Positions 26,756-44,235 of a stretch of DNA of 64,000 nt are shown piece by piece. The position numbers were made by a program, and so were the translations under genes. Position 1 is the first letter of the stretch. Each line of letters opens with the position of its first letter. The notes below the pieces were generated by a model that worked only from the letters and a program-made list of their open reading frames with translations, had not been told where the DNA came from and ran no database searches. This DNA comes from Thiohalobacter sp. IOR34 (GTDB lineage Bacteria > Pseudomonadota > Gammaproteobacteria > Thiohalobacterales > Thiohalobacteraceae), in contig NZ_CP128988.1 of NCBI RefSeq assembly GCF_030406045.1, forward strand, positions 310,001 to 374,000. Direction: 5' to 3'.

Positions 26756-27655
26756 CTACTTGTTGGCGATATCCTCCAGCTTCTTGGCCGGGATCACCTG
26801 GCCGTCGAGACCGGCCTCCTTGGCCGAGGCGCCGTAGGCGACGCTGAGCAGCTGGGAGTAGTAGACCACGGGGATCTTGAACTTGGTGCCATACTTCTGG
26901 TTGATCTGGTCCTGATAGACCTCGGTGTTCATCTGGCACACCGGGCAGGGCGTGACGATCATCTCGGCGCCGTTGTCGTAGGCCGACTCGATGATGTCCT
27001 TGATCAGGGCCTGGCTCTTTTCCGGCTCGGAGAAGGCCAGGGCGCCACCGCAGCAGGACACCTTCTTCTCGTAGTCGTTGCATGGCTCGGCGCCGACCGT
27101 CTCGATCATCTTGTCCAGGTACTTCGGGTTCTCGAAGGATTCGCCGGCGATGCCGAACGGGCGGTTGGTCTGGCAGCCGACGTAGCCGGCGATCTTGATG
27201 CCTTCCAGCGGCTTCTTGACCGGTTGGCCGAGGCCCTCGTAGCCGAAGTCCTCGATCAGCACCTCGACCATGTGGCGGACCTTCTTGTTGGCCTCGATCT
27301 TGAGGCCGGCAGCGGCCAGCGCCTCGTTGGTTTCCTTCATCAGGTCGTCGTCCTCGCGCAGCCGCTCCTGGGTCTCGCGGGTGGCCAGCCAGCAGGCGGC
27401 GCAGGTGGCGACGATGTCCTGATCCGGATGGGCCTGCTCGGAGAGGGCGATGTTGCGTGCCGACAGGGCCAGGCGAGGCAGCTCGCCGCCACCGGCATAG
27501 CCGATCGAGGCGGAGCAGCAGTTCCAGTCCGGAATCTCGTTCAGCTCGATGTCCAGGGTCTTGCACATGCTCTCGACCGAGACCTGGTAGTTGGACGCGG
27601 AAGCCGCCTTCTGGGAAGAGCAGCCCGGATAGAAAGAATAGGTTTTCTTAGCCAT
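26756..27655 (-). CDS. hdrB: HdrB-like heterodisulfide reductase subunit
   Basis: 299 residues. Two CCG-type cysteine motifs: the N-terminal set begins at YPGCSSQ and continues DWNCCSAS and CAACW; the C-terminal set is GCQTNRP, SCCGGALAFSEP and CPVCQMN. These bind the noncubane 4Fe-4S clusters of HdrB. It is the last gene of qmoA-qmoB-hdrC-hdrB. In organisms where QmoC is absent, an HdrC/HdrB pair takes its place next to QmoAB, which is how I read this locus. Likely role: electron transfer between APS reductase and the quinone or another carrier. The substrate is not proven by sequence. Confidence 0.85.
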   Translation of the reverse strand: MAKKTYSFYPGCSSQKAASASNYQVSVESMCKTLDIELNEIPDWNCCSASIGYAGGGELPRLALSARNIALSEQAHPDQDIVATCAACWLATRETQERLREDDDLMKETNEALAAAGLKIEANKKVRHMVEVLIEDFGYEGLGQPVKKPLEGIKIAGYVGCQTNRPFGIAGESFENPKYLDKMIETVGAEPCNDYEKKVSCCGGALAFSEPEKSQALIKDIIESAYDNGAEMIVTPCPVCQMNTEVYQDQINQKYGTKFKIPVVYYSQLLSVAYGASAKEAGLDGQVIPAKKLEDIANK

Positions 27656-27665
27656 TGTCTTCTCC

Positions 27666-28292
27666 TTAGGCGCCGGTCTTGCCGATCTTGGCGTCTTCGA
27701 TTTCCTGGGCCTTGGCGAGCATGGCGTGCAGGCCCTTGGTGTCCTTGCACTTGTGTCCGCCGAACAGCTCCATGGGGCTCATGCGCTTGGTTTTGAGCAT
27801 CCCCAGGCCGATGTCCTTCATTTTCAGCGAGGTCTTGATGCCTTCGGAGAAGCCGTTCATGAAGTACAGCTGCAGGCCGAGCTTCAGCTCGTTGACGCGG
27901 CCGGTCTTGGTCAGGTTGTCCCAGAACAGCTGGGCGAACTTGGCCGTCGGCTGCTGCTGGGGCACCAGCCCGAGGCGCTTCGAGTAGGTGGCCAGGCCAT
28001 GCATGATGTGGGTGATGGGCAGGCCGCGCGGGCAGCGGGCGATGCAGTTGTAGCAGGAGGTGCACATCCACATCGAATCCGACTGCAGAACTTCATCGCG
28101 CTTGCCGGCGCGAATCATCATGAAGATTTCCTGCGGTGGATGTTCCCAGTGCGGACCGAAGGGGCAGGAGCCCGAGCAGACGCCGCACTGCATGCACATC
28201 TTCACCCAGTCCCCTTCCTCGACGTTGGCCTCGACTTCCTTGAGGAAGTTGCCGCGGTACTTTTCGATCATCTGTTGGTTATAGTCGCTCAT
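27666..28292 (-). CDS. hdrC: HdrC-like 4Fe-4S protein
   Basis: 208 residues with two ferredoxin motifs, CMQCGVCSGSCPFG (about residues 35-48) and CTSCYNCIARCPRG (about 77-90), and a C-terminal extension. No membrane helix, so it is HdrC and not the QmoC fusion, whose C-terminal half is a membrane HdrE-like domain. An AGGAGCG site precedes the ATG, which lies 9 bases after the qmoB stop. It links HdrB with the flavoprotein subunits. Confidence 0.87.
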   Translation of the reverse strand: MSDYNQQMIEKYRGNFLKEVEANVEEGDWVKMCMQCGVCSGSCPFGPHWEHPPQEIFMMIRAGKRDEVLQSDSMWMCTSCYNCIARCPRGLPITHIMHGLATYSKRLGLVPQQQPTAKFAQLFWDNLTKTGRVNELKLGLQLYFMNGFSEGIKTSLKMKDIGLGMLKTKRMSPMELFGGHKCKDTKGLHAMLAKAQEIEDAKIGKTGA

Positions 28293-28301
28293 GAATCGCT
28301 C

Positions 28302-30545
28302 CTAGAACTTGAAGGGGCTCATGCCGATCTGTTCGATCGTCTCGGCCATGTCGTCAATCAGCTTCGGTGCGCGGTCGATGTCGGTGATGGCGACCTCGTA
28401 GGTGGCCACGCGCTCCTTCTCCAGATTGAGCTGGGACAGCGTGTCATCGATCTTGCTCATCCGGTAATGGGCCATTTCCGAGCCCTTCACGAAGTGGCAC
28501 TGGTAGTTCTCGCCCTTCTGGCAGCCCATCAGGATGGTGCCGTCATAACCGCTGTTCAGGGCATCGGTGAGCCAGATGGTGTTGACCGAGCCCAGGCAGC
28601 GTACCGGGATGACGCGGGCCCACTGGCTGTACAGGTTGCCCTGCATGGCGGCCATGTCCAGCGCCGGGTAGGCGTCGTTCTCGCAGGCCAGCACCAGGAT
28701 GCGCGGCTTCTCCTCGAACTCGTCCGGGATGTCGACGTTCTTCAGCTGCTGGCCGACGGTATCCACCGAGTAGTTCTCGAAGGAGATGACGCGCACCGGG
28801 CAGGCGCCCATGCAGGTGCCGCAGCGACGGCAGCGCGACTCGTTGTACTGCGGATAACCCTCCTCGTCCTCGTCGATGGCACCGAACGGACACTCCACGG
28901 TGCAGCGCTTGCACTGGGTGCAGCCGTCCTTGCGGAAGGAGGGGAAGGACAGGTCGCCGGAGCGCGGATGCAGGGCACGGCCGAGGTGGGCGTTCTCCAC
29001 CGCCTGGATGGCCTTCAGGGCCGCGCCGGTGGCGTCCTCGATCGCCTGGGCGGTATCCATCGGCCGGCGCACCGGGCCGCAGGTGTAGATGCCGGTGCGG
29101 CGGGTCTCGTAGGGGAAGCAGATGAAGTGCGAGTCACTGAAGCCGTACTTCAGCTGCGGCACGTCCGGTCCCTGGCGGTAGGTGAGGTTGAGGATCGATT
29201 CCACCGGCACATTGACTTCGGCGCTGGCTTCCTCGTTCTCGTCCTTGCTCTCTTCGTCCTCGGTGACCGGCAGTTCGATATTGACGCCGGCGTTGGGCAC
29301 CATGCCGGTGGCCAGCACCACCAGGTCGACCTCCTCGCTCATCTCCTCGTCGAGGATCAGATCCTTGAACTTGACGGTCAGGCCATTGCCGCCGGCCGTC
29401 ACCTCGGAGGCGATGCCCTTGCGGAAGGTGACCTCCTTGTCCTGGCCGGCGCGGTAGAAGTCCTCGCCGGGCGCACCCGGGGTGCGCAGATCGGTGAACA
29501 GCACCGTGGCCTCGATGTCCGGGTTCTGGTCCTTGAAGTACATGGCCTGCTTGATGGAGGTCAGGCAGCAGTGGCCGGAGCAGTAGGGCAGGTGGCCCTC
29601 CTTGTCACTGCGCTGGCCGGCGCACTGCAGGAACATGACCCGCGTCACCTCCTTGCCGTCGGAGGGGCGCTTGATGGGGCCGCCGTTGGCCGCCTTGGCC
29701 AGTTCCTCCAGGCCGAGCTGGTCGACCACGTCCGGGTTGCCGGCGCCGAGCTCGGGGAGCTGGCTCATGTCATAGGGCTTGAAGCCGGAGGCCTGGATGA
29801 TGGCGCCGAAGTTCTCGGTGCTGGTGCTGCCGGACTCGGAGGTGATGTCAGCCGAGAAACGGCCCGGTGCGCCCGAGGTCTTGGTGATGGTCGAGTTGAG
29901 GTGCACGGTGATGTTCGACTGCGCCTCGATCTCGGCCGCCAGGGCGGCCACCGGTGGGTCGATCAGCTCGCCGAAGGGGGCCTTCTGCGGAATGTCCTTC
30001 CAGGCGTGGCCCAGGGCGCCACCCAGCTGGCCGGTCTTCTCGACCAGGTGCACGGGATAGCCGGCCTTGGCGGCTTCCAGCGCGGCGGTCATGCCGGACA
30101 CGCCGCCACCGACCACCAGGATGGCGTTTTCCTGGCCGCGGTTCTCGGACGGCTGGGGCGGGGTCATGAACTTGGCCTCGGCACAGCCCATACGCACGTA
30201 GTCGTCGGCCATCTCCTGGGTGGTTTCCTGCATCTCGTCCTCGTCGGGACGCACCCAGATGACACCCTCGCGCAGGTTGACGCGGCTGATGGCGACACCG
30301 TCGAAGTCGAAGGCTTCGGTCTTGGCGCGACGCGAGCAGGCGGCGATGACCACGCGGTTGACACCCTCGTTGTCGATGTCGTCCTGGATCAGCTTCACGC
30401 CTTCGGCGTTACACAGGAAGTCATGCTGCTTGACCACCTGGGCCTTGCCGTCGCGCTGGGCGATGGTGGCCAGCTGGTCGCAGTCCAGGCGTTCGCCCAG
30501 GCCGCAGCCCTTGCAGATATATGCTCCAATCTTGATGTCAGCCAT
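28302..30545 (-). CDS. qmoB: QmoB: HdrA-like flavoprotein with ferredoxin and MvhD domains
   Basis: 747 residues. N-terminal part with CKGCGLGERLDC and CSRRAK; FAD domain from ILVVGGGVSGMTAALEAA (about residue 143); CAGQRSDKEGHLPYCSGHCC; two 4Fe-4S motifs CTQCKRCTVECP and CRRCGTCMGACP (about 560-605). The C-terminal MvhD-like domain has ILVLACENDAYPALDMA and LMGCQKGENYQCHF. This order is that of QmoB, the large subunit of the quinone-interacting oxidoreductase partner of APS reductase. An acidic insert (EDEESKDENEEAS) sits in the FAD region. It is 3 bases from the qmoA stop. The large antisense frame on the opposite strand is a shadow. Confidence 0.9.
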   Translation of the reverse strand: MADIKIGAYICKGCGLGERLDCDQLATIAQRDGKAQVVKQHDFLCNAEGVKLIQDDIDNEGVNRVVIAACSRRAKTEAFDFDGVAISRVNLREGVIWVRPDEDEMQETTQEMADDYVRMGCAEAKFMTPPQPSENRGQENAILVVGGGVSGMTAALEAAKAGYPVHLVEKTGQLGGALGHAWKDIPQKAPFGELIDPPVAALAAEIEAQSNITVHLNSTITKTSGAPGRFSADITSESGSTSTENFGAIIQASGFKPYDMSQLPELGAGNPDVVDQLGLEELAKAANGGPIKRPSDGKEVTRVMFLQCAGQRSDKEGHLPYCSGHCCLTSIKQAMYFKDQNPDIEATVLFTDLRTPGAPGEDFYRAGQDKEVTFRKGIASEVTAGGNGLTVKFKDLILDEEMSEEVDLVVLATGMVPNAGVNIELPVTEDEESKDENEEASAEVNVPVESILNLTYRQGPDVPQLKYGFSDSHFICFPYETRRTGIYTCGPVRRPMDTAQAIEDATGAALKAIQAVENAHLGRALHPRSGDLSFPSFRKDGCTQCKRCTVECPFGAIDEDEEGYPQYNESRCRRCGTCMGACPVRVISFENYSVDTVGQQLKNVDIPDEFEEKPRILVLACENDAYPALDMAAMQGNLYSQWARVIPVRCLGSVNTIWLTDALNSGYDGTILMGCQKGENYQCHFVKGSEMAHYRMSKIDDTLSQLNLEKERVATYEVAITDIDRAPKLIDDMAETIEQIGMSPFKF

Positions 30546-30548
30546 GGA

Positions 30549-31835
30549 TTAACCCTCCGTCCCGGCAACTCGATTCACGACCTGGATGGCGCGCAGCGCG
30601 CCGGCGGTGGCGCTCTGCACCGCCCGGTTCACGTCCAGGGCATCGGCCGAACAGCCGGCCGCAAAGATGGCGCCATTGGCCTCGTCGGGCACGATGAAGC
30701 CTTCCTCGTTGATGGTGATGTCCATCGGCATGCTGTCGGCCGGCACGCTCGGCTCCATGCCGACGGCCAGTACCACCAGGTCGTGCGGGTTGCTGTAGCG
30801 GTGGTAGCCCTCGGTGTCGACACCATGCAGCACCGGGTTGCCCGTCTCCTTGTCCTCGGTGATGGAGGCGACCTTGGACTTGATGAAGGTGACGTTCTCG
30901 TCGGCCTTCACCTTCTGATAGAAGTCGTCGATGCGGTCGATGGCACGGATGTCGATGTAGTAGACGGACGCCTTGAAGTCGTCACCGTACTTGTCGCGCA
31001 GATAGGTGGTCTGCTTCAGGCTGGCCATGCAGCAGATGCGCGAACAGTGCTTGAGGTGGTTGCGGTCACGCGAACCGGCGCACTGGATGAAGGCGACGTT
31101 CTTCGCCTCCTTGCCGTCGGATGGGCGCAGGATCTTGCCCCCGGTGGGTCCGAAGGGGTCGGACATGCGCTCGTATTCGACGCTGGTGATGACGTTGGCG
31201 AAGCGGTCGTAGCCGTAGGGCTGGATCTTGTTGGCATCGTACGGCTGCCAGCCGGTGGCCCAGATGATGGCGCCGACGGTCAGCGTGGTCTCCTCGTCCT
31301 GCATGTCGAGGTCGATGGCGCCGTACTTGCAGGCCTCCCTGGCCTTGTCGGCGTCGGCGGTGCCGATGATGCGCGGGTCCAGCACATAGCGCTGCGGATA
31401 GGCCAGGCTGTTGGCGATGTAGGCGCCCTTGCGCTTGCCCAGGCCGTAGTCGTATTCGCTGTCGAATTCGGCCTCCACCGCATCGGCGCAGGCGCCGCAG
31501 GCGGTGCAGTTCTCGTTCACGTAGCGCGGCGCCGTCTTCAGGGTCACCTGATAGTTGCCGGGCTCACCCTCGACCTTGGTGACCTCGGTGAGGGTCATCA
31601 GGCGCAGGTTCTTGTTGGCCTTCATGCGGCGAATGTTGATTTCCAGTCCGCACTTGGGGTGGCACAGCTTGGGGAAGTACTTGTAGAGCTGACTTACCCG
31701 GCCACCGACGGACGGATTCTTTTCGACCAGGATCACCTGTTTGCCGCATTCCGCGGCCTCCAGTGCTGCGGACATGCCGCTGATCCCGCCGCCCACCACC
31801 AGGATGGTCTGGTTGGTCGCGATTACCTCCGACAT
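30549..31835 (-). CDS. qmoA: QmoA: HdrA-like FAD protein
   Basis: 428 residues. FAD-binding ILVVGGGISGMSAALEAAECG at the N-terminus, the HdrA cysteine region YFPKLCHPKCGLEIN, a single ferredoxin-like CTACGACADAV, FIQCAGSRDRNHLKHCSRICC and the C-terminal FAD segment FAAGCSADALDVNRAVQSATAGA. Size and motifs fit QmoA. GGAGGA precedes the ATG. First gene of the operon; aprBA, which often precedes qmo, is absent and a divergent cbbQ gene is found instead. Confidence 0.9.
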   Translation of the reverse strand: MSEVIATNQTILVVGGGISGMSAALEAAECGKQVILVEKNPSVGGRVSQLYKYFPKLCHPKCGLEINIRRMKANKNLRLMTLTEVTKVEGEPGNYQVTLKTAPRYVNENCTACGACADAVEAEFDSEYDYGLGKRKGAYIANSLAYPQRYVLDPRIIGTADADKAREACKYGAIDLDMQDEETTLTVGAIIWATGWQPYDANKIQPYGYDRFANVITSVEYERMSDPFGPTGGKILRPSDGKEAKNVAFIQCAGSRDRNHLKHCSRICCMASLKQTTYLRDKYGDDFKASVYYIDIRAIDRIDDFYQKVKADENVTFIKSKVASITEDKETGNPVLHGVDTEGYHRYSNPHDLVVLAVGMEPSVPADSMPMDITINEEGFIVPDEANGAIFAAGCSADALDVNRAVQSATAGALRAIQVVNRVAGTEG

Positions 31836-32267: not shown

Positions 32268-33080
32268 GTGACCATGCGCGCCGTCAAGCTGGAAGAATAT
32301 TTCATAGAAGATGAGCCCTATTACGAGCCTGTTGGCGACGAGATCGAGGTTTTTGAGGCAGCCTATCGCAATGGCCTGCCGCTCCTGCTGAAGGGGCCGA
32401 CCGGCTGCGGCAAGACCCGTTTCATGGAGCACATGGCCTGGCGGCTGAAGCGGCCGCTGATCACCGTCTCCTGCCACGACGACCTGACTGCCTCCGACCT
32501 GGTCGGCCGCTTCCTGGTCAGCGGTGGCGATACCGAATGGATCGACGGGCCGTTGGCGCGGGCGGTGCGGGCCGGCGGCATCTGCTACCTGGACGAGATC
32601 GTCGAGGCGCGCAAGGACACCACGGTGGTCATCCACCCGCTGGCCGACGACCGGCGGGTGCTGCCGATGGAGAAGCGTGGCGAACTGCTGGAGGCCGCCG
32701 CCGACTTCTGCCTTGCGATTTCCTACAACCCCGGCTATCAGAGCGTGCTCAAGGATCTGAAACAGAGCACCCGGCAGCGTTTCGTGGCGCTCAACTTCGA
32801 CTATCCCTCGGCGCAGCTGGAGGCGCAGATCATCCAGCGCGAGACCGGCATCGACGAGGCGCTGGCCCAGAAGCTGGTCAAGTTCGCGCGCATGACCCGC
32901 AACCTGAAGGGCAGTGGCCTGGAGGAGGGCGCCAGCACCCGGCTGCTGGTGCATGCCGCCAAGCTGATGCGCAGCGGCATCGCCCCGGTGGCCGCCTGCC
33001 GGGCCGCGCTCTCCGAGGCGCTGACCGACGATCCGGAGATGCGGGTCGCGGTCAACGAGCTGAGCGCGTCGGTCTTCTAG
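32268..33080 (+). CDS. cbbQ: CbbQ/NorQ-type MoxR AAA+ ATPase
   Basis: 270 residues from GTG 32268, which lies 6 bases after GAGGAG; an ATG two codons later (32274) is the alternative. Starts KLEEYFIEDEPYYEPVGDE, as usual in CbbQ. Walker A GPTGCGKTR (Lys near 49), Walker B ICYLDEIVEAR, sensor region AISYNPGYQS and arginine-finger segment STRQRFVALNFDYPS. CbbQ hexamers with CbbO remodel inhibited RuBisCO; NorQ does the same job for nitric oxide reductase. The partner here is the fused cbbO 379 bases downstream. No RuBisCO or nor gene is in the window. The stop codon is formed by the first bases of a MITE. Confidence 0.9.
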   Translation: MTMRAVKLEEYFIEDEPYYEPVGDEIEVFEAAYRNGLPLLLKGPTGCGKTRFMEHMAWRLKRPLITVSCHDDLTASDLVGRFLVSGGDTEWIDGPLARAVRAGGICYLDEIVEARKDTTVVIHPLADDRRVLPMEKRGELLEAAADFCLAISYNPGYQSVLKDLKQSTRQRFVALNFDYPSAQLEAQIIQRETGIDEALAQKLVKFARMTRNLKGSGLEEGASTRLLVHAAKLMRSGIAPVAACRAALSEALTDDPEMRVAVNELSASVF

Positions 33081-33459: not shown

Positions 33460-36456
33460 GTGGCTGAGCTTCGCCTGGACAGCCCTTGCGGCGACTATGC
33501 CCTGCTCGACGTCGGCCGCGGCCGGGTGCTGGAACGCTGGGGCGAGTACCGGGTCGAGCGGCCGGAGCGCCTGGCCGATGCCGAGCCGCGGCTGGACCAC
33601 TGGCAGGCGGACTGGTGCTTCCGGCCCGGCGCCATCGGTCAGCCGGGCGACTGGCAGGCCGCCCGCCCGGGGCTGGCGCGGGAATGGCCGCTGGAGTTCG
33701 AGGGCCAGCGGCTGCACTGCCGGCTGCTGGAGGAGGGGCGGCTGAGTCTCCAACCGCGACAGCTGCTCTGCCGGCAGTGGATCGCCGCGCGCCTGGCGGG
33801 CTGCTATCACCTGCGGCGGCTGCGGGTGCTCAATCTCTTCGCCGGCGCCGGCGCGCTGACTGCGGCGGCCTTGGCCGCGGGAGCCGAGGTGGTGCATGTC
33901 GACGCCAGTGCCGCGCGCCTGGCCGAGGCCCGGGCGGCGCTGGGTGAGGACGGCATCGAGTACGTCGAGGCCGAGGTCCTGGCCTTCCTCGAGGGGGCGC
34001 TGCGTCGCCGCGAGCGTTTCGAGCTGATCCTGGTCAATGCCCCGCGCACCGCCTTCGGCGGCACGGTCCAGGCCTGGGACAGCGACATCGACCTGCCGCG
34101 GCTGATCAAGCTGCTGCCCCCCCTGGTCGGCGAAGACTGCCGCGGCATCTGGCTGGCCAGCAGCGATAGCGGATGGCAGGGGGAGGCCCTGGCCCAGCTG
34201 CTCGGCGAGGTGTTGCCCGGGCGCCGTATCGAGGCCGGCCCCCTGGAGGTGCGCGAGGCGGCGGCCGGCTGCCGCTTGCCGCTCGGCTCGGCGGTGCGCT
34301 GGAGCGACGACCACGACTTTCCGCAGGCTGCCGACCGGCCGCTGGATGCCGCCCAGCTGGAGGCGAGGATCGAGCCCTTCATGATCGCCAGCGGGGCCGC
34401 GGAGGCGCCGGCGACGGCACTGGCGCAGTTGCCGCGGTCGCAGCAGGATTTCGTGCTGCACTGGGTGGAGGTGGTCGCCAAGACCAGTTCCGGCATGGCC
34501 TTCCAGTTCGTCTGTCATGCGGTCCCTGCCCTGCGGCTGATGGACGAGGCGGGCGTGGAGGCCTGGCTGCTGCAATGCATGGATGCCTACGACACCGCCG
34601 GCCTGCAGGCCGCGGTGGCCGCCTTCCAGCAGGTGGAGGACTTTGCCCGCGAGCGGCGCTCGCGCAGCACGGGGGTCGCCTTCGACGAGGTGGCGGTTGT
34701 CCTGGAGGCCTTCGTCCAGGGCCTGAACGGCCGGCGTCTGAAGCTGCAGGCCGGCGAGGTCTGTTATACCGACAGCGAGACCCTCTACCTGCCGCAGAGC
34801 CTGGTCCGGTTGCCCGCCCGGCAGGACAACTTCCGGCTCTACAAGGCGCTGGCCGTGCACCAGTGGGCGCAGACCTGGTACGGCAGCTGGCGGCTGAGCC
34901 TGGTCCAGGCCTGCCGCCACTTCGCCGATGCCGAGCGGGCCATGGCCCTGTTTCATGCACTGGAGTCGCTGCGCCTGGACGCCTGCATCGCCCGTGACTT
35001 GCCCGGCGTGGCGCGGGAGATGGCCGCCCTGCGCGAGCAGGTGGGGCATCCCGGCCCCCCGCCCCACTGGATGCAGGCCGTCGAACGCCTGTCCCGTCCC
35101 GGGGCGCGGGTCGAGGACAGCTATGCGCTGCTGCCCGATCTGTATGCGCTGCCGTTGCCCGAGCCCTTGCCCTACCAGGGCAGCCTGCGGCCGTCGGAGG
35201 TGGAGGCGGTGCGGGCGGAGCGCCTGGCGCGTGACCGCGAGGCCCTGCGCCTCGGCCTGCTGCGCATGGAGGAGTCCGTGCGCCGGCGTCTGGAGGCGGC
35301 CGGTCTGCAGAGCGCGGAGCAGGATGCGGCCGGGCGGGCCTCGCGGCTGGGGCTGCGGAAGACGCCCGATGAGACCATGCCGGAGGGTTGCCGCTACGAG
35401 GTGACGCTGGACGGCAAGCCGCTGGCGCCACCGGACGAGGTGCGCGCGAGCATGGACTCCATCCTCCAGGATCTGGGCGAGATCCCGGACGACTATCTGT
35501 TCGCGGCCGGCGACGGCGGCTATGCGCCGGCCGCCGACAGGACGCGCGACCCGGGCGAGGTGTGGAAGGGGACCTATCACGAGGAGGGGGCCTTCCATTA
35601 CAACGAGTGGGATCACGAGCGTCAGCACTATCGCAAGAACTGGGCGGTGCTGCGTGAGTTGGAGGTGACGCCGCAGCACGACGGATTCGTCGAGCGCACC
35701 CTGCACAAGCACGCTGGTCTGGTGAAAAGTCTGCGTCGTACCTTCGAGGCGCTGCGCGGTGAGGACAAGCTGCTGAAGAAGCAGGTCAACGGTGATGATG
35801 TCGACATCGATGCCCTGGTCGAGGCCTGGGCCGACAGCAAGTCCGGTCTGGAGATGAGCGACCGGCTGTTCACCAAGATGCACAAGCTGGAGCGTGACAT
35901 CGCGGTGATGTTCATGGTCGACATGAGTGGTTCGACCAAGGGCTGGATCAACGAGGCCGAACGCGAGGCGCTGGTGCTGCTCTGCGAATCGCTGGAGACT
36001 CTGGGCGACCGCTATGCCATCTATGGCTTCTCCGGCATGACCCGCAAGCGCTGCGAGGTGTACCGGGTGAAGACCTTCGACGATCCCTACGACGAGACGG
36101 TCAAGGCACGGATCAGCAGCATCCAGCCGCGTGACTACACGCGCATGGGTGTCGCCATCCGCCACCTCAGTGCGCTGCTCAATCGCGTCGAGGCCCGTAC
36201 CCGGTTGCTGATCACTCTCTCCGATGGCAAGCCTGACGACTACGATACCTACCGTGGTGCCTACGGCATCGAGGACACGCGCATGGCCTTGATCGAGGCC
36301 AAGCGCGACGGCATCCATCCCTACTGCATCACCATCGACAGCGAGGCGCGTGACTATCTGCCGCACATGTATGGCGCGGTGAATTACACGGTGATCGACG
36401 AGGTGCGCAAGCTGCCGCTCAAGGTCTCCGACATCTACCGCCGTCTGACCAGCTGA
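33460..36456 (+). CDS. cbbO: CbbO/NorD-type vWA protein fused to an N-terminal RlmI-like methyltransferase domain
   Basis: 998 residues, about 200-300 longer than usual CbbO. Residues 1 to about 285 look like the class I rRNA-type methyltransferases of the RlmI kind: LLDVGRGRVLERWGEYRVERP, then SAM motif I LNLFAGAGALTAAALAAGAE (124-143) and HVDAS, then LILVNAPRTAFGG followed by DIDLPRLIKLLPPL. The catalytic LDPPSFGRG of that family has become VNAPRTAFGG (192-201), and the HTGLFPEQ segment has become LSLQPRQ. The SAM pocket may be kept but catalysis is doubtful. From about 300 on it is CbbO/NorD: LPRSQQDFVLHWVEVVAKTS ... LPLPEPLPYQG ... and a vWA domain with complete MIDAS D821-M-S823-G-S825. 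Partner of the CbbQ ATPase upstream. The frame is open throughout with no break at the junction. Confidence 0.88.
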   Translation: MAELRLDSPCGDYALLDVGRGRVLERWGEYRVERPERLADAEPRLDHWQADWCFRPGAIGQPGDWQAARPGLAREWPLEFEGQRLHCRLLEEGRLSLQPRQLLCRQWIAARLAGCYHLRRLRVLNLFAGAGALTAAALAAGAEVVHVDASAARLAEARAALGEDGIEYVEAEVLAFLEGALRRRERFELILVNAPRTAFGGTVQAWDSDIDLPRLIKLLPPLVGEDCRGIWLASSDSGWQGEALAQLLGEVLPGRRIEAGPLEVREAAAGCRLPLGSAVRWSDDHDFPQAADRPLDAAQLEARIEPFMIASGAAEAPATALAQLPRSQQDFVLHWVEVVAKTSSGMAFQFVCHAVPALRLMDEAGVEAWLLQCMDAYDTAGLQAAVAAFQQVEDFARERRSRSTGVAFDEVAVVLEAFVQGLNGRRLKLQAGEVCYTDSETLYLPQSLVRLPARQDNFRLYKALAVHQWAQTWYGSWRLSLVQACRHFADAERAMALFHALESLRLDACIARDLPGVAREMAALREQVGHPGPPPHWMQAVERLSRPGARVEDSYALLPDLYALPLPEPLPYQGSLRPSEVEAVRAERLARDREALRLGLLRMEESVRRRLEAAGLQSAEQDAAGRASRLGLRKTPDETMPEGCRYEVTLDGKPLAPPDEVRASMDSILQDLGEIPDDYLFAAGDGGYAPAADRTRDPGEVWKGTYHEEGAFHYNEWDHERQHYRKNWAVLRELEVTPQHDGFVERTLHKHAGLVKSLRRTFEALRGEDKLLKKQVNGDDVDIDALVEAWADSKSGLEMSDRLFTKMHKLERDIAVMFMVDMSGSTKGWINEAEREALVLLCESLETLGDRYAIYGFSGMTRKRCEVYRVKTFDDPYDETVKARISSIQPRDYTRMGVAIRHLSALLNRVEARTRLLITLSDGKPDDYDTYRGAYGIEDTRMALIEAKRDGIHPYCITIDSEARDYLPHMYGAVNYTVIDEVRKLPLKVSDIYRRLTS

Positions 36457-36740: not shown

Positions 36741-36812
36741 CCGATTCCGGGGGGATGAGAAGCGGGCCACGTCGGTTACGGAGGTCCGCCACAACATGTG
36801 GAGGAGGTGGGG

Positions 36813-38498
36813 ATGAAGCACTACAGCGACTGTTTCAACAAGCGGTCCAGGTTCATCGAGGCGCCGTCGCTGCGCGAGGTCGAGGCGGCTGCGATGCCAA
36901 ATGCCGGCGGGGCCGTGGACGGCCTGGCGGCACGTCTCGGCGAGCTGCTCCAGGTGCAGAACGATTTCTTCCCCTGTTTCGACTGGACCTTCCCGCCACC
37001 GCTGCTCAGCAAGTCCGAGCCGCCGGCCGATGCCGCGGCGCTCTTTGCCCGGCCCTCGGTGGTCCCCGGTCGCTATTCGATCTATCTGCACAGTCCCTTC
37101 TGCAAGAGCCTGTGCAGCTTCTGCTACTACGCGGTGATTCCCGGTCGCGGCAGCCGCATGGCAGAAGACTACATCGACCGGCTGCTGGGCGAGATGGCGA
37201 TGTACCGGGAGGCCATGGCCGGCCAGGTCTGCGAATCGATCTATTTCGGCGGTGGCACGCCCAGTTTCCTCGACGGCGTGCTGTTGCGCCGGGTGTTCGA
37301 GGGCCTGCATGCCAATTTCGACATCGAGGCTGATGCCGAGATCACCGTCGAGGCCTCGCCCGGCACCCTGCCACGGGTCAAGCTGGAACTGCTCAGGTCG
37401 CTGGGGGTCAACCGGCTGAGCTATGGCATCCAGTCGCTGGACGAGGCGCTGCTGGCCGGCATGAATCGCAGCTATTCGATCGACGAGGCGGTCAGGGAGC
37501 TCACCGATGCGGTGGAGCGCATCGGCAACGTCAACGTCGACACCATGTACGGTTTCGACGGCGAGCACGAGGATGCCCTGCTGGAGAGCCTCGGCCGGCT
37601 GCACGAGATCGGTGTGCCCAGCCTGTCGATCTATGCACTGGACAAGCAGCGCAGCCAGAGCCTGCAGCATTTCGAACCGCCCAAGGATTCGCTTTACGAG
37701 TACAAGATCCGTCAGTTCGCGCGTGCCGAGGCCCTGCTCGATTCCTTCGGCTTCCAGCCGGTTCTGCAGAACGTGTTCGTCGATCCGCGGCGTGCCTCCT
37801 ACCGCCACCAGGTACGGCGCTGGGACAATCTGCCGCTGCTCGCCCTGGGCATGAACGCCCAGGGCTATGCCCCGCGTCGGCCCTACCAGAACATCGCCAG
37901 CATCAAGTCCTATTGCCAGGCCATCGACGAGGGGCGGCTGCCGGTGGCGACCTGTGACGAGCTCGACCGGGAGCTGGAATTCTGTCGCGAGCTGACCAGC
38001 AAGCTGCGCTTCACCTGGGTCAGTATCGGCCAGATGCGCTACAAGTATGGCGTCGATCTGCAGGCGGTGTTCGGTGAACTGATCGATGCGCTCGGTGAGC
38101 TGGGTTACCTGGAATGCGATGGCGACATCCTGCGCATGACACCCAAGGCGGCCTACTACAACAACATCATCCCCATGCTGTTCGCGCCGGATGCCTTCAA
38201 GGAAAAGCTGCTCGGCCTGCCGGAGGAATACATCGAGGCCTTCCCGGTGCCCTACATCATGACCCGTCTGGGACGGATCCAGTCGGCGTCCTTCGATTTC
38301 TCCCGCGGGCGTCCGGAACGGCGCCACCACACCGAGCGCCGCAGCGGCGAGCGGCGCCGGGTCAGGGCCGGGCAGGGTGCGGACGGGGAACGGCGCTGTC
38401 AGGCGGAGCGCCGCCGGCAGGCCGGGCGGCGCAGCAGCGACCGGATGCGCGGCTGGTCGATCACCGCCGGGGAGCAGGCGGCTGCGGCCCTGCCCTGA
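36813..38498 (+). CDS. HemN/HemW-like radical SAM protein with Arg-rich tail
   Basis: 561 residues from ATG 36813; GAGGAGGTGG lies just upstream. Radical SAM cluster C97-x3-C101-x2-C104 in SPFCKSLCSFCYY, followed by IYFGGGTPSFLD, ITVEASPGTL, GVNRLSYGIQSLDEALL and NVDTMYGFDGEHED, which is the HemN/HemW order. An N-terminal region of about 80 residues precedes the barrel, and a HemN C-terminal-like domain follows (about 370-460). The last 60 residues contain repeated ERR and GRR motifs (499-545), unusual for this family. It could be a coproporphyrinogen dehydrogenase-like or heme-handling enzyme; the true substrate is unclear. It follows cbbO on the same strand after a MITE. Confidence 0.8.
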   Translation: MKHYSDCFNKRSRFIEAPSLREVEAAAMPNAGGAVDGLAARLGELLQVQNDFFPCFDWTFPPPLLSKSEPPADAAALFARPSVVPGRYSIYLHSPFCKSLCSFCYYAVIPGRGSRMAEDYIDRLLGEMAMYREAMAGQVCESIYFGGGTPSFLDGVLLRRVFEGLHANFDIEADAEITVEASPGTLPRVKLELLRSLGVNRLSYGIQSLDEALLAGMNRSYSIDEAVRELTDAVERIGNVNVDTMYGFDGEHEDALLESLGRLHEIGVPSLSIYALDKQRSQSLQHFEPPKDSLYEYKIRQFARAEALLDSFGFQPVLQNVFVDPRRASYRHQVRRWDNLPLLALGMNAQGYAPRRPYQNIASIKSYCQAIDEGRLPVATCDELDRELEFCRELTSKLRFTWVSIGQMRYKYGVDLQAVFGELIDALGELGYLECDGDILRMTPKAAYYNNIIPMLFAPDAFKEKLLGLPEEYIEAFPVPYIMTRLGRIQSASFDFSRGRPERRHHTERRSGERRRVRAGQGADGERRCQAERRRQAGRRSSDRMRGWSITAGEQAAAALP

Positions 38499-41368: not shown

Positions 41369-43522
41369 ATGAAGACCGCACAGCTTACGGCCGTGACCCA
41401 TGCGACGACGGACATCGCCCTGCAGGAGGCCTCGCAGGACATCTGGGACAAGAAATACCGGCTGAAGACCAAGGAGGGCGTGGCCGTCGACCGGGACATC
41501 GATGCGACCTACCAGCGCGTGGCCCAGGCCCTGGCCGAGGTCGAGCAGACGCCGGAGGCCCGCGAGCACTGGCGCGAGCAGTTCCTCTGGGCGCTGCGCC
41601 ACGGCGCCATCCCGGCCGGCCGCATCATCTCCAACGCCGGTGCCTGGGAGCACAAGCCGGCCACCTCCACCATCAACTGCACGGTGTCCGGTACCATCCG
41701 CGACTCCATGAACGACATCCTGGAGAAGGTGCACGAGGCCGGCTTGACCCTGAAGGCCGGCTGCGGCATCGGCTACGAGTTTTCCACCCTGCGCCCCAAG
41801 GGGGCCTACGTGGCCGGCGCCGGTGCCTACACCTCCGGCCCGCTGTCCTTCATGGACATCTACGACAAGATGTGCTTCACCGTCTCCTCCGCCGGCGGCC
41901 GGCGTGGCGCGCAGATGGCCACCTTCGACATCGGCCACCCGGACGTGATGGATTTCATTCGTGCCAAGCGCGAGGACGGCCGCTTGCGCCAGTTCAACCT
42001 CTCGCTGCTCATCACCCGCGACTTCATGGAGGCGGTCAAGGTCGATGCCGACTGGAAGCTGTCCTTTCCCCTGACCGAGGCCGAACTGGAGACCGAACGT
42101 CTCGATCTGGATGATCCACAGCAGGTGGTGTGGCGCAGCTGGCCCTCGACCGAGGGCTACATCAGCAACGAGGCCGGCAAGGTCGCCTGCAAGGTGTACC
42201 GCAGCATCCGCGCGCGGCGTCTGTGGGACATGATCATGGCCTCCACCTACGACTTCGCCGAACCGGGCTTCATCCTGATCGACAAGGTCAACGAGATGAA
42301 CAACAACTGGTTCTGCGAGAACGTGCGGGCGACCAATCCCTGCGGCGAGCAGCCGTTGCCACCCTACGGCTCCTGCCTGCTGGGTTCGGTAAACCTGACC
42401 AAGTTCGTGCGCGACCCCTTCACCGAGAATGCCCGCTTCGACTGGGAGGCCTTCCGCAAGGTGGTCGGCGTCTTCACCCGCATGCTGGACAACGTGGTGG
42501 AGATCAATGGCCTGCCACTCGACGGCCAGCGCGACGAGATCCTGCGCAAGCGCCGCCACGGCATGGGCTTCCTTGGTCTCGGTTCCACGGTCACCATGCT
42601 GCGCATGAAGTACGGATCCGAGGATTCGGTGGCGTTCACCGAGCAGGTGGCGCGCGAGCTGGCGCTGGAGGGCTGGCGCACGGCGCTGGATCTGGCCAAG
42701 GAAAAGGGGCCGGCGCCGATCATGGAGGAGGAGTTTACGGTAACCGAGGCCATGCTCGAACAGCGGCCGGAGATGCGCCGCGATGGCTGGCAGGTCGGTG
42801 ACCAGGTGCAGGGCAAGCTGCTGCATGCCAAGTACAGCCGCTACATGCAGGAGGTGGCGCGGCTGGAGCCGGAACTGGTGCAGGAACTGGCGCTGGTGGG
42901 GGCGCGCTTCACCCATCACAGTTCGATCGCGCCCACCGGCACCATCTCCCTGTCGCTGGCCAACAATGCCAGCAACGGCATCGAGCCGTCCTTCGCCCAC
43001 CACTATTTCCGCAATGTGATCCGCGAGGGCCGCAAGACCAAGGAGAAGGTGGCCGTCTACTCCTTCGAACTGCTCGCCTACCGCGAGCTGATCAATCCCC
43101 AGGCCATGCCCTACAGCGAGGACGAGGCGGCCCGGCTGCCGGAGTACTTCATCACCGCCGAGGACATCACTCCCAAGGCGCATGTCGACATCCAGGCGGC
43201 TGCCCAGAAGTGGGTCGACTCCAGTATCTCCAAGACCGCCAACGTGCCAACCGATTACCCGTATGAGGATTTCAAGGACATCTATCTCTACGCCTATGAG
43301 CAGGGTTTGAAGGGGTGTACCACCTTCCGCTTCAACCCGGAGGCCTTCCAGGGGGTGCTGGTCAAGGAACAGGATCTGGAAAACACCACCTATGTCTTCA
43401 CCCTGGAGGACGGCAGCACACTGGAGGTGAAGGGCAACGAGGAGGTCGAGTACGACGGCGAGGTGCATACCGCGGCCAATCTCTACGATGCACTGAAAGA
43501 AGGCTATTACGGCAAGTTCTGA
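41369..43522 (+). CDS. nrdJ: Class II (B12-dependent) ribonucleotide reductase, main part (NrdJa)
   Basis: 717 residues. Makes deoxyribonucleotides using an adenosylcobalamin radical, with or without oxygen. Active-site cysteines: C104 in STINCTVSG and C336 in GSCLLGSVNL as the redox pair, C325 in NPCGEQ as the radical-carrying Cys. Other blocks: RIISNAGAWEH, AGCGIGYEFSTLRPKG, FTHHSSIAPTGTISL and the barrel end GLKGCTTFRF. The C-terminal redox tail is not in this protein but in the gene 26 bases downstream, the split nrdJa-nrdJb arrangement known in Pseudomonas. No cobalamin riboswitch was recognised in the leader. Confidence 0.95.
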   Translation: MKTAQLTAVTHATTDIALQEASQDIWDKKYRLKTKEGVAVDRDIDATYQRVAQALAEVEQTPEAREHWREQFLWALRHGAIPAGRIISNAGAWEHKPATSTINCTVSGTIRDSMNDILEKVHEAGLTLKAGCGIGYEFSTLRPKGAYVAGAGAYTSGPLSFMDIYDKMCFTVSSAGGRRGAQMATFDIGHPDVMDFIRAKREDGRLRQFNLSLLITRDFMEAVKVDADWKLSFPLTEAELETERLDLDDPQQVVWRSWPSTEGYISNEAGKVACKVYRSIRARRLWDMIMASTYDFAEPGFILIDKVNEMNNNWFCENVRATNPCGEQPLPPYGSCLLGSVNLTKFVRDPFTENARFDWEAFRKVVGVFTRMLDNVVEINGLPLDGQRDEILRKRRHGMGFLGLGSTVTMLRMKYGSEDSVAFTEQVARELALEGWRTALDLAKEKGPAPIMEEEFTVTEAMLEQRPEMRRDGWQVGDQVQGKLLHAKYSRYMQEVARLEPELVQELALVGARFTHHSSIAPTGTISLSLANNASNGIEPSFAHHYFRNVIREGRKTKEKVAVYSFELLAYRELINPQAMPYSEDEAARLPEYFITAEDITPKAHVDIQAAAQKWVDSSISKTANVPTDYPYEDFKDIYLYAYEQGLKGCTTFRFNPEAFQGVLVKEQDLENTTYVFTLEDGSTLEVKGNEEVEYDGEVHTAANLYDALKEGYYGKF

Positions 43523-43548
43523 GAGGGACGCCAGCAGAGGGTTTCTAG

Positions 43549-44235
43549 ATGATGATCAAGATCGACCAGAAGATTGTGGATTACGGTGTCCTCAAGGATG
43601 AGCCGGAAACCGAGGCCGCCGAGGCGGTGGAGGAGGAGAAGGTCGTCCATCTGCACGAGAAGCTGGAGCGGCCCGAGATGCTGCTCGGTTCGACCTACAA
43701 GATCAAGACGCCACTTTCCGAACATGCCCTGTATGTCACCATCAACGACATCATTCTCAATCCGGGCACCGAACATGAACTGCGGCGCCCCTTCGAGATC
43801 TTCATCAACTCGAAGAACATGGATCACTTCCAGTGGATCGTCGCCCTGACCCGTATCATCTCGGCGGTGTTCCGCAAGGGCGGCGACGTCACCTTCCTGG
43901 TGGAGGAGCTGCGTTCGGTGTTCGATCCGCGCGGCGGTTACTTCAAGCGCGGAGGCAAGTACATGCCCTCGCTGGTGGCCGAGATCGGCGATGCCATCGA
44001 ATGTCACCTGCGGATGATCGGCATGCTCAGGGACGAGGGGCTGGACGAGCACCAGCGCAAGCTGGTGGAGGAGAAGCGCGCCCAGTTCGAGGCGGCGGCG
44101 AACAGCGCCGGGCAGGCCGCAGCCCAGGACTTCCCCGAGGGGGCGCAGTTGTGCCTCAAGTGCAATACCAAGGCCGCGATCCAGATGGACGGCTGCCTGA
44201 CGTGCTTGAACTGCGGCGATTCGAAATGCGGCTGA
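43549..44235 (+). CDS. NrdJb: C-terminal part of split class II ribonucleotide reductase
   Basis: 228 residues, close to the size of Pseudomonas NrdJb. TSCPD-like domain (TYKIKTPLSEHALYVTINDI ... HFQWIVALTRIISAVFRKGGD ... LRSVFDPRGGYFKRGGKYMPSLVAEIGDAIE). It ends in a cysteine-rich tail (CLKCNTKAAIQMDGCLTC, LNCGDSKCG), which should re-reduce the NrdJa active-site disulfide. Follows nrdJa by 26 bases on the same strand. Confidence 0.9.
   Translation: MMIKIDQKIVDYGVLKDEPETEAAEAVEEEKVVHLHEKLERPEMLLGSTYKIKTPLSEHALYVTINDIILNPGTEHELRRPFEIFINSKNMDHFQWIVALTRIISAVFRKGGDVTFLVEELRSVFDPRGGYFKRGGKYMPSLVAEIGDAIECHLRMIGMLRDEGLDEHQRKLVEEKRAQFEAAANSAGQAAAQDFPEGAQLCLKCNTKAAIQMDGCLTCLNCGDSKCG

Follow-up and report, generated by a model that had tools for sequence, protein, structure and literature searches.

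The closest described relatives of the locus studied here are two-gene machines made of a MoxR-type AAA+ ATPase (Q) and a VWA adaptor protein (O). NorQ and NorD act as a chaperone of nitric oxide reductase, and CbbQ and CbbO form a RuBisCO activase. NorQ has been proposed to twist the VWA finger of NorD in its pore while the N-terminal region of NorD, a domain proposed as leverage point, holds the client (PMC13036017). For such adaptors, NorD included, the variable N-terminal domain is a proposed determinant of target specificity (PMC9976466). Also, the RavA/ViaA pair of E. coli acts on fumarate reductase and is a MoxR-VWA pair tied to a respiratory electron-transport complex (PMC10585395).

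The window, i.e., the whole stretch of 64,000 nucleotides analyzed here, contains a Q/O pair which shares with NorQ/NorD the two-gene design, the C-terminal profile match to solved NorD (9qhd, E = 6e-62) and an intact MIDAS; however, NorD has no methyltransferase half, and the client-type neighbors are here qmo/apr and not nor. With CbbQ/CbbO it has in common a Q family carrying the CbbQ_C domain and a VWA adaptor, whereas the window pair is not beside RuBisCO, the genome has two proper CbbQO pairs, and CbbO lacks the additional half. RavA/ViaA, compared by description, belongs to another subfamily and shows no fusion. The additional half has the full-length fold, N-terminal strands included, of Atu0340 (PDB 2igt), an alphaproteobacterial SAM methyltransferase to which, to our knowledge, no function has been assigned; unlike the half, Atu0340 is a stand-alone protein, and DPPK[FYW] is intact in its relatives. 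RlmI (YccW, the 23S rRNA m5C1962 methyltransferase) shares the Rossmann core, but the sequence match is confined to this core and motif IV is degenerate in the window protein. A search of open-access papers returned no functional paper on 2IGT/Atu0340, and nothing on a VWA-methyltransferase-MoxR fusion or on qmoA together with MoxR.

The fused gene is a single uninterrupted frame at 33460-36456 (+), with a GTG start and 998 codons encoding 998 amino acids (Table 1). The fusion of a methyltransferase fold to a complete CbbO/NorD-like VWA protein, as claimed in the earlier note, thus lies within one frame, and it recurs in other genomes. The match of unfused homologs to the fused protein starts at the linker, around residue 285. 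In the full-length model the methyltransferase domain is retained, the linker is disordered (285-290) and the helical domain 295-613 is confident; the VWA half has low confidence, and therefore the placement of the halves relative to each other is not claimed. The MIDAS, previously read as intact, is so in the family, with D821, S823, S825, T894 and D922 invariant in 20 aligned fusions. A C-terminal VWA domain with intact MIDAS and an adjacent gene for a CbbQ/NorQ-family AAA+ protein identify the product as a MoxR-associated VWA adaptor of the CbbO/NorD kind. An assembly or frameshift artefact was ruled out by an equal single open frame in 29 loci.

Table 1. Features of the fused gene and of its neighbors (positions in the window; residues of the fused protein).
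Feature	Positions	Strand	Remarks
Methyltransferase-fold domain, 2IGT type, pseudo-enzyme in most fusions	33460..34311	+	residues ~1-284; HMM against PDB 2igt, Foldseek, predicted model
SAM motif I LNLFAGAG	33829..33852	+	residues 124-131; Gly131 in 29/29 and Gly129 in 28/29 fused
Motif II HVDAS	33895..33909	+	residues 146-150; residue 148 acidic in 25/29 fused
Degenerate motif IV NAPRT	34036..34050	+	residues 193-197; DPPxF in stand-alone relatives
Short linker joining the halves	34312..34341	+	residues 285-294; pLDDT <50 at 285-290, confident domain on either side
O-protein N-terminal domain, mostly helical	34342..35298	+	residues 295-613; mostly pLDDT 80-94 (full-length model); also in unfused homologs
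VWA domain with MIDAS	35905..36228	+	residues 816-923; Pfam VWA_2 E = 1.3e-6; profile match to solved NorD 9qhd E = 6e-62
Partner MoxR AAA+ ATPase Q, CbbQ/NorQ family	32274..33080	+	AAA_5 E = 1e-32, CbbQ_C E = 2e-31
qmoA, HdrA-like flavoprotein, divergent from Q	30549..31835	-	NCBIfam HdrA-type match; linkage
qmoB	28302..30545	-	NCBIfam HdrA-type match
hdrC-like subunit (putative name)	27666..28292	-	position and homology, conserved in qmo loci
hdrB-like subunit	26756..27655	-	NCBIfam HdrB/SdhE-type match

Downstream, the window encodes a HutW/HemW-like radical SAM protein whose C-terminal tail is repetitive and rich in Arg (36798-38498, +) and an apparently split NrdJ (41369-44235, +), in which the second ORF (43549-44235) aligns with the C-terminal part of the NCBIfam model that the first one matches; this split is conserved at related loci. 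In genomes G100 and G055, the B12-dependent ribonucleotide reductase near the locus probably contains an intein that has a LAGLIDADG domain (L034:3069-6350 (-) and L036:949-4230 (-)), and the window copy (41369-43522) has no intein.

Scanned as a single sequence, residues 1-284 gave matches to Pfam PF10672 (E = 1.6e-4) and to NCBIfam RlmC/RlmI-type models (E = 1e-6 to 1e-4), all below the curated cut-offs; for instance, the curated RlmI model scored 19 bits against a cut-off of 712. A profile of nine relatives matched PDB 2igt at E = 8e-43 over profile positions 9-264, the RlmI structure 3c0k coming well behind (E = 4e-11 over 90 positions). The AlphaFold model of the half (pLDDT 85) was matched to 2igt by Foldseek with E = 3e-24 and a TM-score of 0.82. 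Fold and full-length sequence match place the half in the 2IGT-type (Atu0340) family; in the window protein NAPRT stands in place of the catalytic DPPx[FYW] of that family, and RlmI is a more distant relative. Of the "RlmI-like" domain announced in the earlier note, the class I SAM-methyltransferase fold therefore stands, and the nearest relative changes from RlmI to the 2IGT type. PADLOC returned only a weak match of the methyltransferase core to mad2, and no defense context was seen at the locus.

The occurrence of the fusion in other genomes had been predicted, and 28 further fused loci were found, in uncultured Gammaproteobacteria. The fused frame is single and open in 25 loci of the named-genome collection and in G005, and likewise up to the contig end in G077 and L178. 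With the window included, and with contigs present in both our genome and locus sets counted once, 29 fused sequences were compared. The named-genome scan with full-length alignment yielded 80 loci, and its 25 fused ones are all in metagenome-assembled, uncultured genomes (Thiohalobacter, Thiogranum, Ectothiorhodospiraceae, other Gammaproteobacteria). Among 144 relatives, full-length fusions were present in G000, G004, G005, G055, G100 and G109, that of G077 being cut by the contig end, and about 19 other genomes had an unfused homolog, mostly a frame of 700-780 codons matching from about residue 285 or later. In the tree of the O domain the fusions form one group (28 rows, SH-aLRT 88), and the one row of this group that counts as "unfused", L166, is incomplete because its contig starts within the gene. 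The simplest reading of this tree is that the fusion most likely arose once. In a 398-genome sample of the phylum, the same kind of methyltransferase was found in 58 genomes in addition to that of the window, almost all of them from other classes; the frames were always short, so that no further fusion of this kind occurs there. A separate methyltransferase gene directly upstream of an unfused O, which would represent the pre-fusion state, was sought and not found, and the weakly supported methyltransferase tree does not order stand-alone genes and fusion in time. One record titled Halobacteria archaeon (L095) carries a typical gammaproteobacterial fusion and is probably mislabelled or a mixed bin.

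The catalytic motif, already noticed to be changed in the window, is degenerate throughout the fused family. The Asp of motif IV is kept in 2 of the 29 fusions, six different residues replacing it in the others (P in 13, R and S in 5 each, T in 2, Q and N in 1 each, at this first position of DPPxF), versus all four gammaproteobacterial stand-alone genes. Outside the class, DPPK[FYW] is found in 18 stand-alone genes, which we take to be alphaproteobacterial as 2igt is; the pattern left a nineteenth gene unresolved. Of the 29 fusions, only L101 (SPPYF) and L105 (DPPGF) retain a canonical [DNS]PPx[FYW], and 25/29 have no aromatic residue at position 5. The acid of motif II is replaced by Asn in two related fusions and by Ser and Ala in two others, L105 being among the fusions without it. 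Many structural residues are invariant in the fusions (Y13, D17, R22, E25, W48, W52, W206, D207, D211), and a 13-member clade has a conserved loop, approximately G[HY]GP[KR]G[QE]xWDREVD, in place of motif IV. Between close pairs, dN/dS was 0.08-0.21 for the methyltransferase half and much the same, 0.09-0.26, for the O N-terminal half; the VWA half had lower values (0.04-0.12). These ratios and the kept residues, set against the decayed motif IV, indicate that the half is under constraint, though not for the usual catalysis. From its conserved motifs, the half may bind SAM in the fused proteins.

Several functions could account for this constraint. A still active methyltransferase with relaxed motif IV (S/T/N-PP), whose substrate would be the client or the machine, would agree with the conserved motif I, with purifying selection on the half and with the SPPYF and DPPGF variants, and S, N and D are tolerated at this motif in some N-methyltransferases. 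Such an activity nevertheless appears unlikely, as the catalytic position is mostly R, P or Q, most fusions lack the aromatic residue, and L105, with its DPPGF, lacks the acid of motif II. The half could instead be a SAM/SAH sensor gating the Q/O ATPase by one-carbon or sulfur status. Conservation of Gly131 in every fusion and of the motif II acid in most, while motif IV decays, speaks for a sensor, but the Asn, Ser and Ala substitutions of this acid speak against it, and we give this possibility a small probability, slightly above that of an active enzyme. It is more doubtful still that the half is a structural passenger, kept only for the solubility or stability of the O protein: unfused O homologs of 49-62% identity do manage without it, yet its dN/dS is similar to that of the O N-terminal half and the loop of the 13-member clade is conserved.

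The last alternative, that the fusion is a CbbO, the subunit of RuBisCO activase, extended by one domain, draws on the distant homology of its VWA half to CbbO and NorD. However, the genome holds four CbbQ/NorQ-type genes. Two Q/O pairs adjoin RuBisCO, one of form I and one of form II; a third lies close to nor-like genes, for a cytochrome c and a member of the haem-copper oxidase family; the fourth is that of the window, divergent from qmoAB-hdrCB. The RuBisCO genes are thus elsewhere, with their own Q/O, and the fusion stands apart in the tree from both RuBisCO-linked O proteins. Identity as RuBisCO activase was ruled out by this linkage and by the tree position, which leaves the CbbO reading hardly any credit. 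The name CbbO given in the earlier note has to be withdrawn, as this role belongs to the two other pairs. The same note was right that the half is foreign to normal CbbO, since the other three O proteins of the genome, ordinary CbbO/NorD proteins, are without it. Its suggestion of RuBisCO or the ribosome as target finds nothing that ties the half to either, and neighborhood and co-occurrence point to APS reductase/Qmo.

The divergent layout of Q/O versus qmoA, qmoB and two hdr-like genes recurs at fused and unfused loci. Among loci with at least 8.5 kb upstream, qmo adjoins 8 of 12 fused and 17 of 33 unfused ones, and no qmo is beside four fused loci despite long flanks. In the 144 relatives, QmoA was found in 22/27 genomes with a window-type O (counted from strong matches, contig-cut ones included) versus 8/117 others (Fisher 7e-15, phylogeny ignored; the genomes are related and not independent, and our Fisher tests do not account for shared ancestry). 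AprA fell into two score sets, above ~1040 bits and at ~900-970 bits, which presumably correspond to the two lineages described in the literature, the aprM-linked and the qmo-linked one (PMC2211403), respectively. Q accompanied the lower-scoring set in 22/25 genomes versus 10/119 (Fisher 2e-15, phylogeny ignored), a p-value which is descriptive as the split was drawn after the table was seen. This genomic association with qmo or apr characterizes the Apr/Qmo-associated Q/O class that we propose. In G049, without QmoA match, Q lies ~1 kb downstream of aprM-like and aprB-like genes and aprA; the machine may therefore act on APS reductase itself or on the membrane partner of this enzyme. The Q locus of G049 is L199:5546-10558, its O gene being on a separate contig. 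Among the exceptions, Q and O occur in G101 and G130, where neither AprA nor QmoA was found, and eight genomes, including G120, have QmoA without a full O. In G120, a broken Q remnant (L201, G120:C36, 7913-8199 and 8931 onward) adjoins an intact qmo cluster.

Two other genomes, G141 and G104, have no QmoA match, a higher-scoring AprA and a methyltransferase with intact DPP[ST]F. At the G141 locus, a Q fragment that has lost its ATP-binding half is followed by an intact methyltransferase of 282 codons (DPPSF), then by a stop codon and an in-frame scrap of the O VWA domain. The loss of Q/O where Qmo is absent supports the client link, the in-frame scrap favors a reversion from the fusion in this genome, and the survival of the intact methyltransferase suggests that it had its own substrate. 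G104 and G253, a congener of G141, have the stand-alone gene and no O, and the G104 locus has in common with the fused loci a gene for a DegQ-like protease (name read from sequence) and an Hsp20 gene.

Taking these data together, we lean, by somewhat more than an even chance, towards a MoxR-VWA machine that most likely serves the Apr-Qmo sulfite-oxidation module, and not RuBisCO, and whose adaptor gained a pseudo-methyltransferase, most likely as an anchor binding the client or a partner. In one gammaproteobacterial clade, the O adaptor would have acquired the N-terminal 2IGT-type domain, most likely once, and the catalytic motif would then have been lost along many lines, with the fold and, mostly, the SAM-binding loop retained. 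By analogy with NorQD, the Q hexamer would grip the VWA finger and twist the adaptor while the client is held by its N-terminal side; the pseudo-methyltransferase would be an added client or partner anchor, possibly tuned by bound SAM/SAH. As the pseudo-methyltransferase extends just this client-holding end, a role in anchoring or recognition is favored over SAM sensing and residual catalysis. In a bolder hypothesis, to which we give a little less than an even chance, the APS reductase-Qmo complex of sulfur oxidizers is matured or repaired by a MoxR-VWA machine not described so far, one clade having recruited a catalytically dead methyltransferase as client-recognition or SAM-sensing head.

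Few clients are known for CbbQ/NorQ-type machines (RuBisCO, nitric oxide reductase), and APS reductase-Qmo would be the third. If so, this class of chaperones would gain a link with a reaction central to the sulfur cycle, and the extra "CbbO"-like genes of sulfur oxidizers would be explained. As fused, unfused and reverted forms occur in related genomes, the fusion also constitutes a natural experiment on the client specificity of the adaptor.
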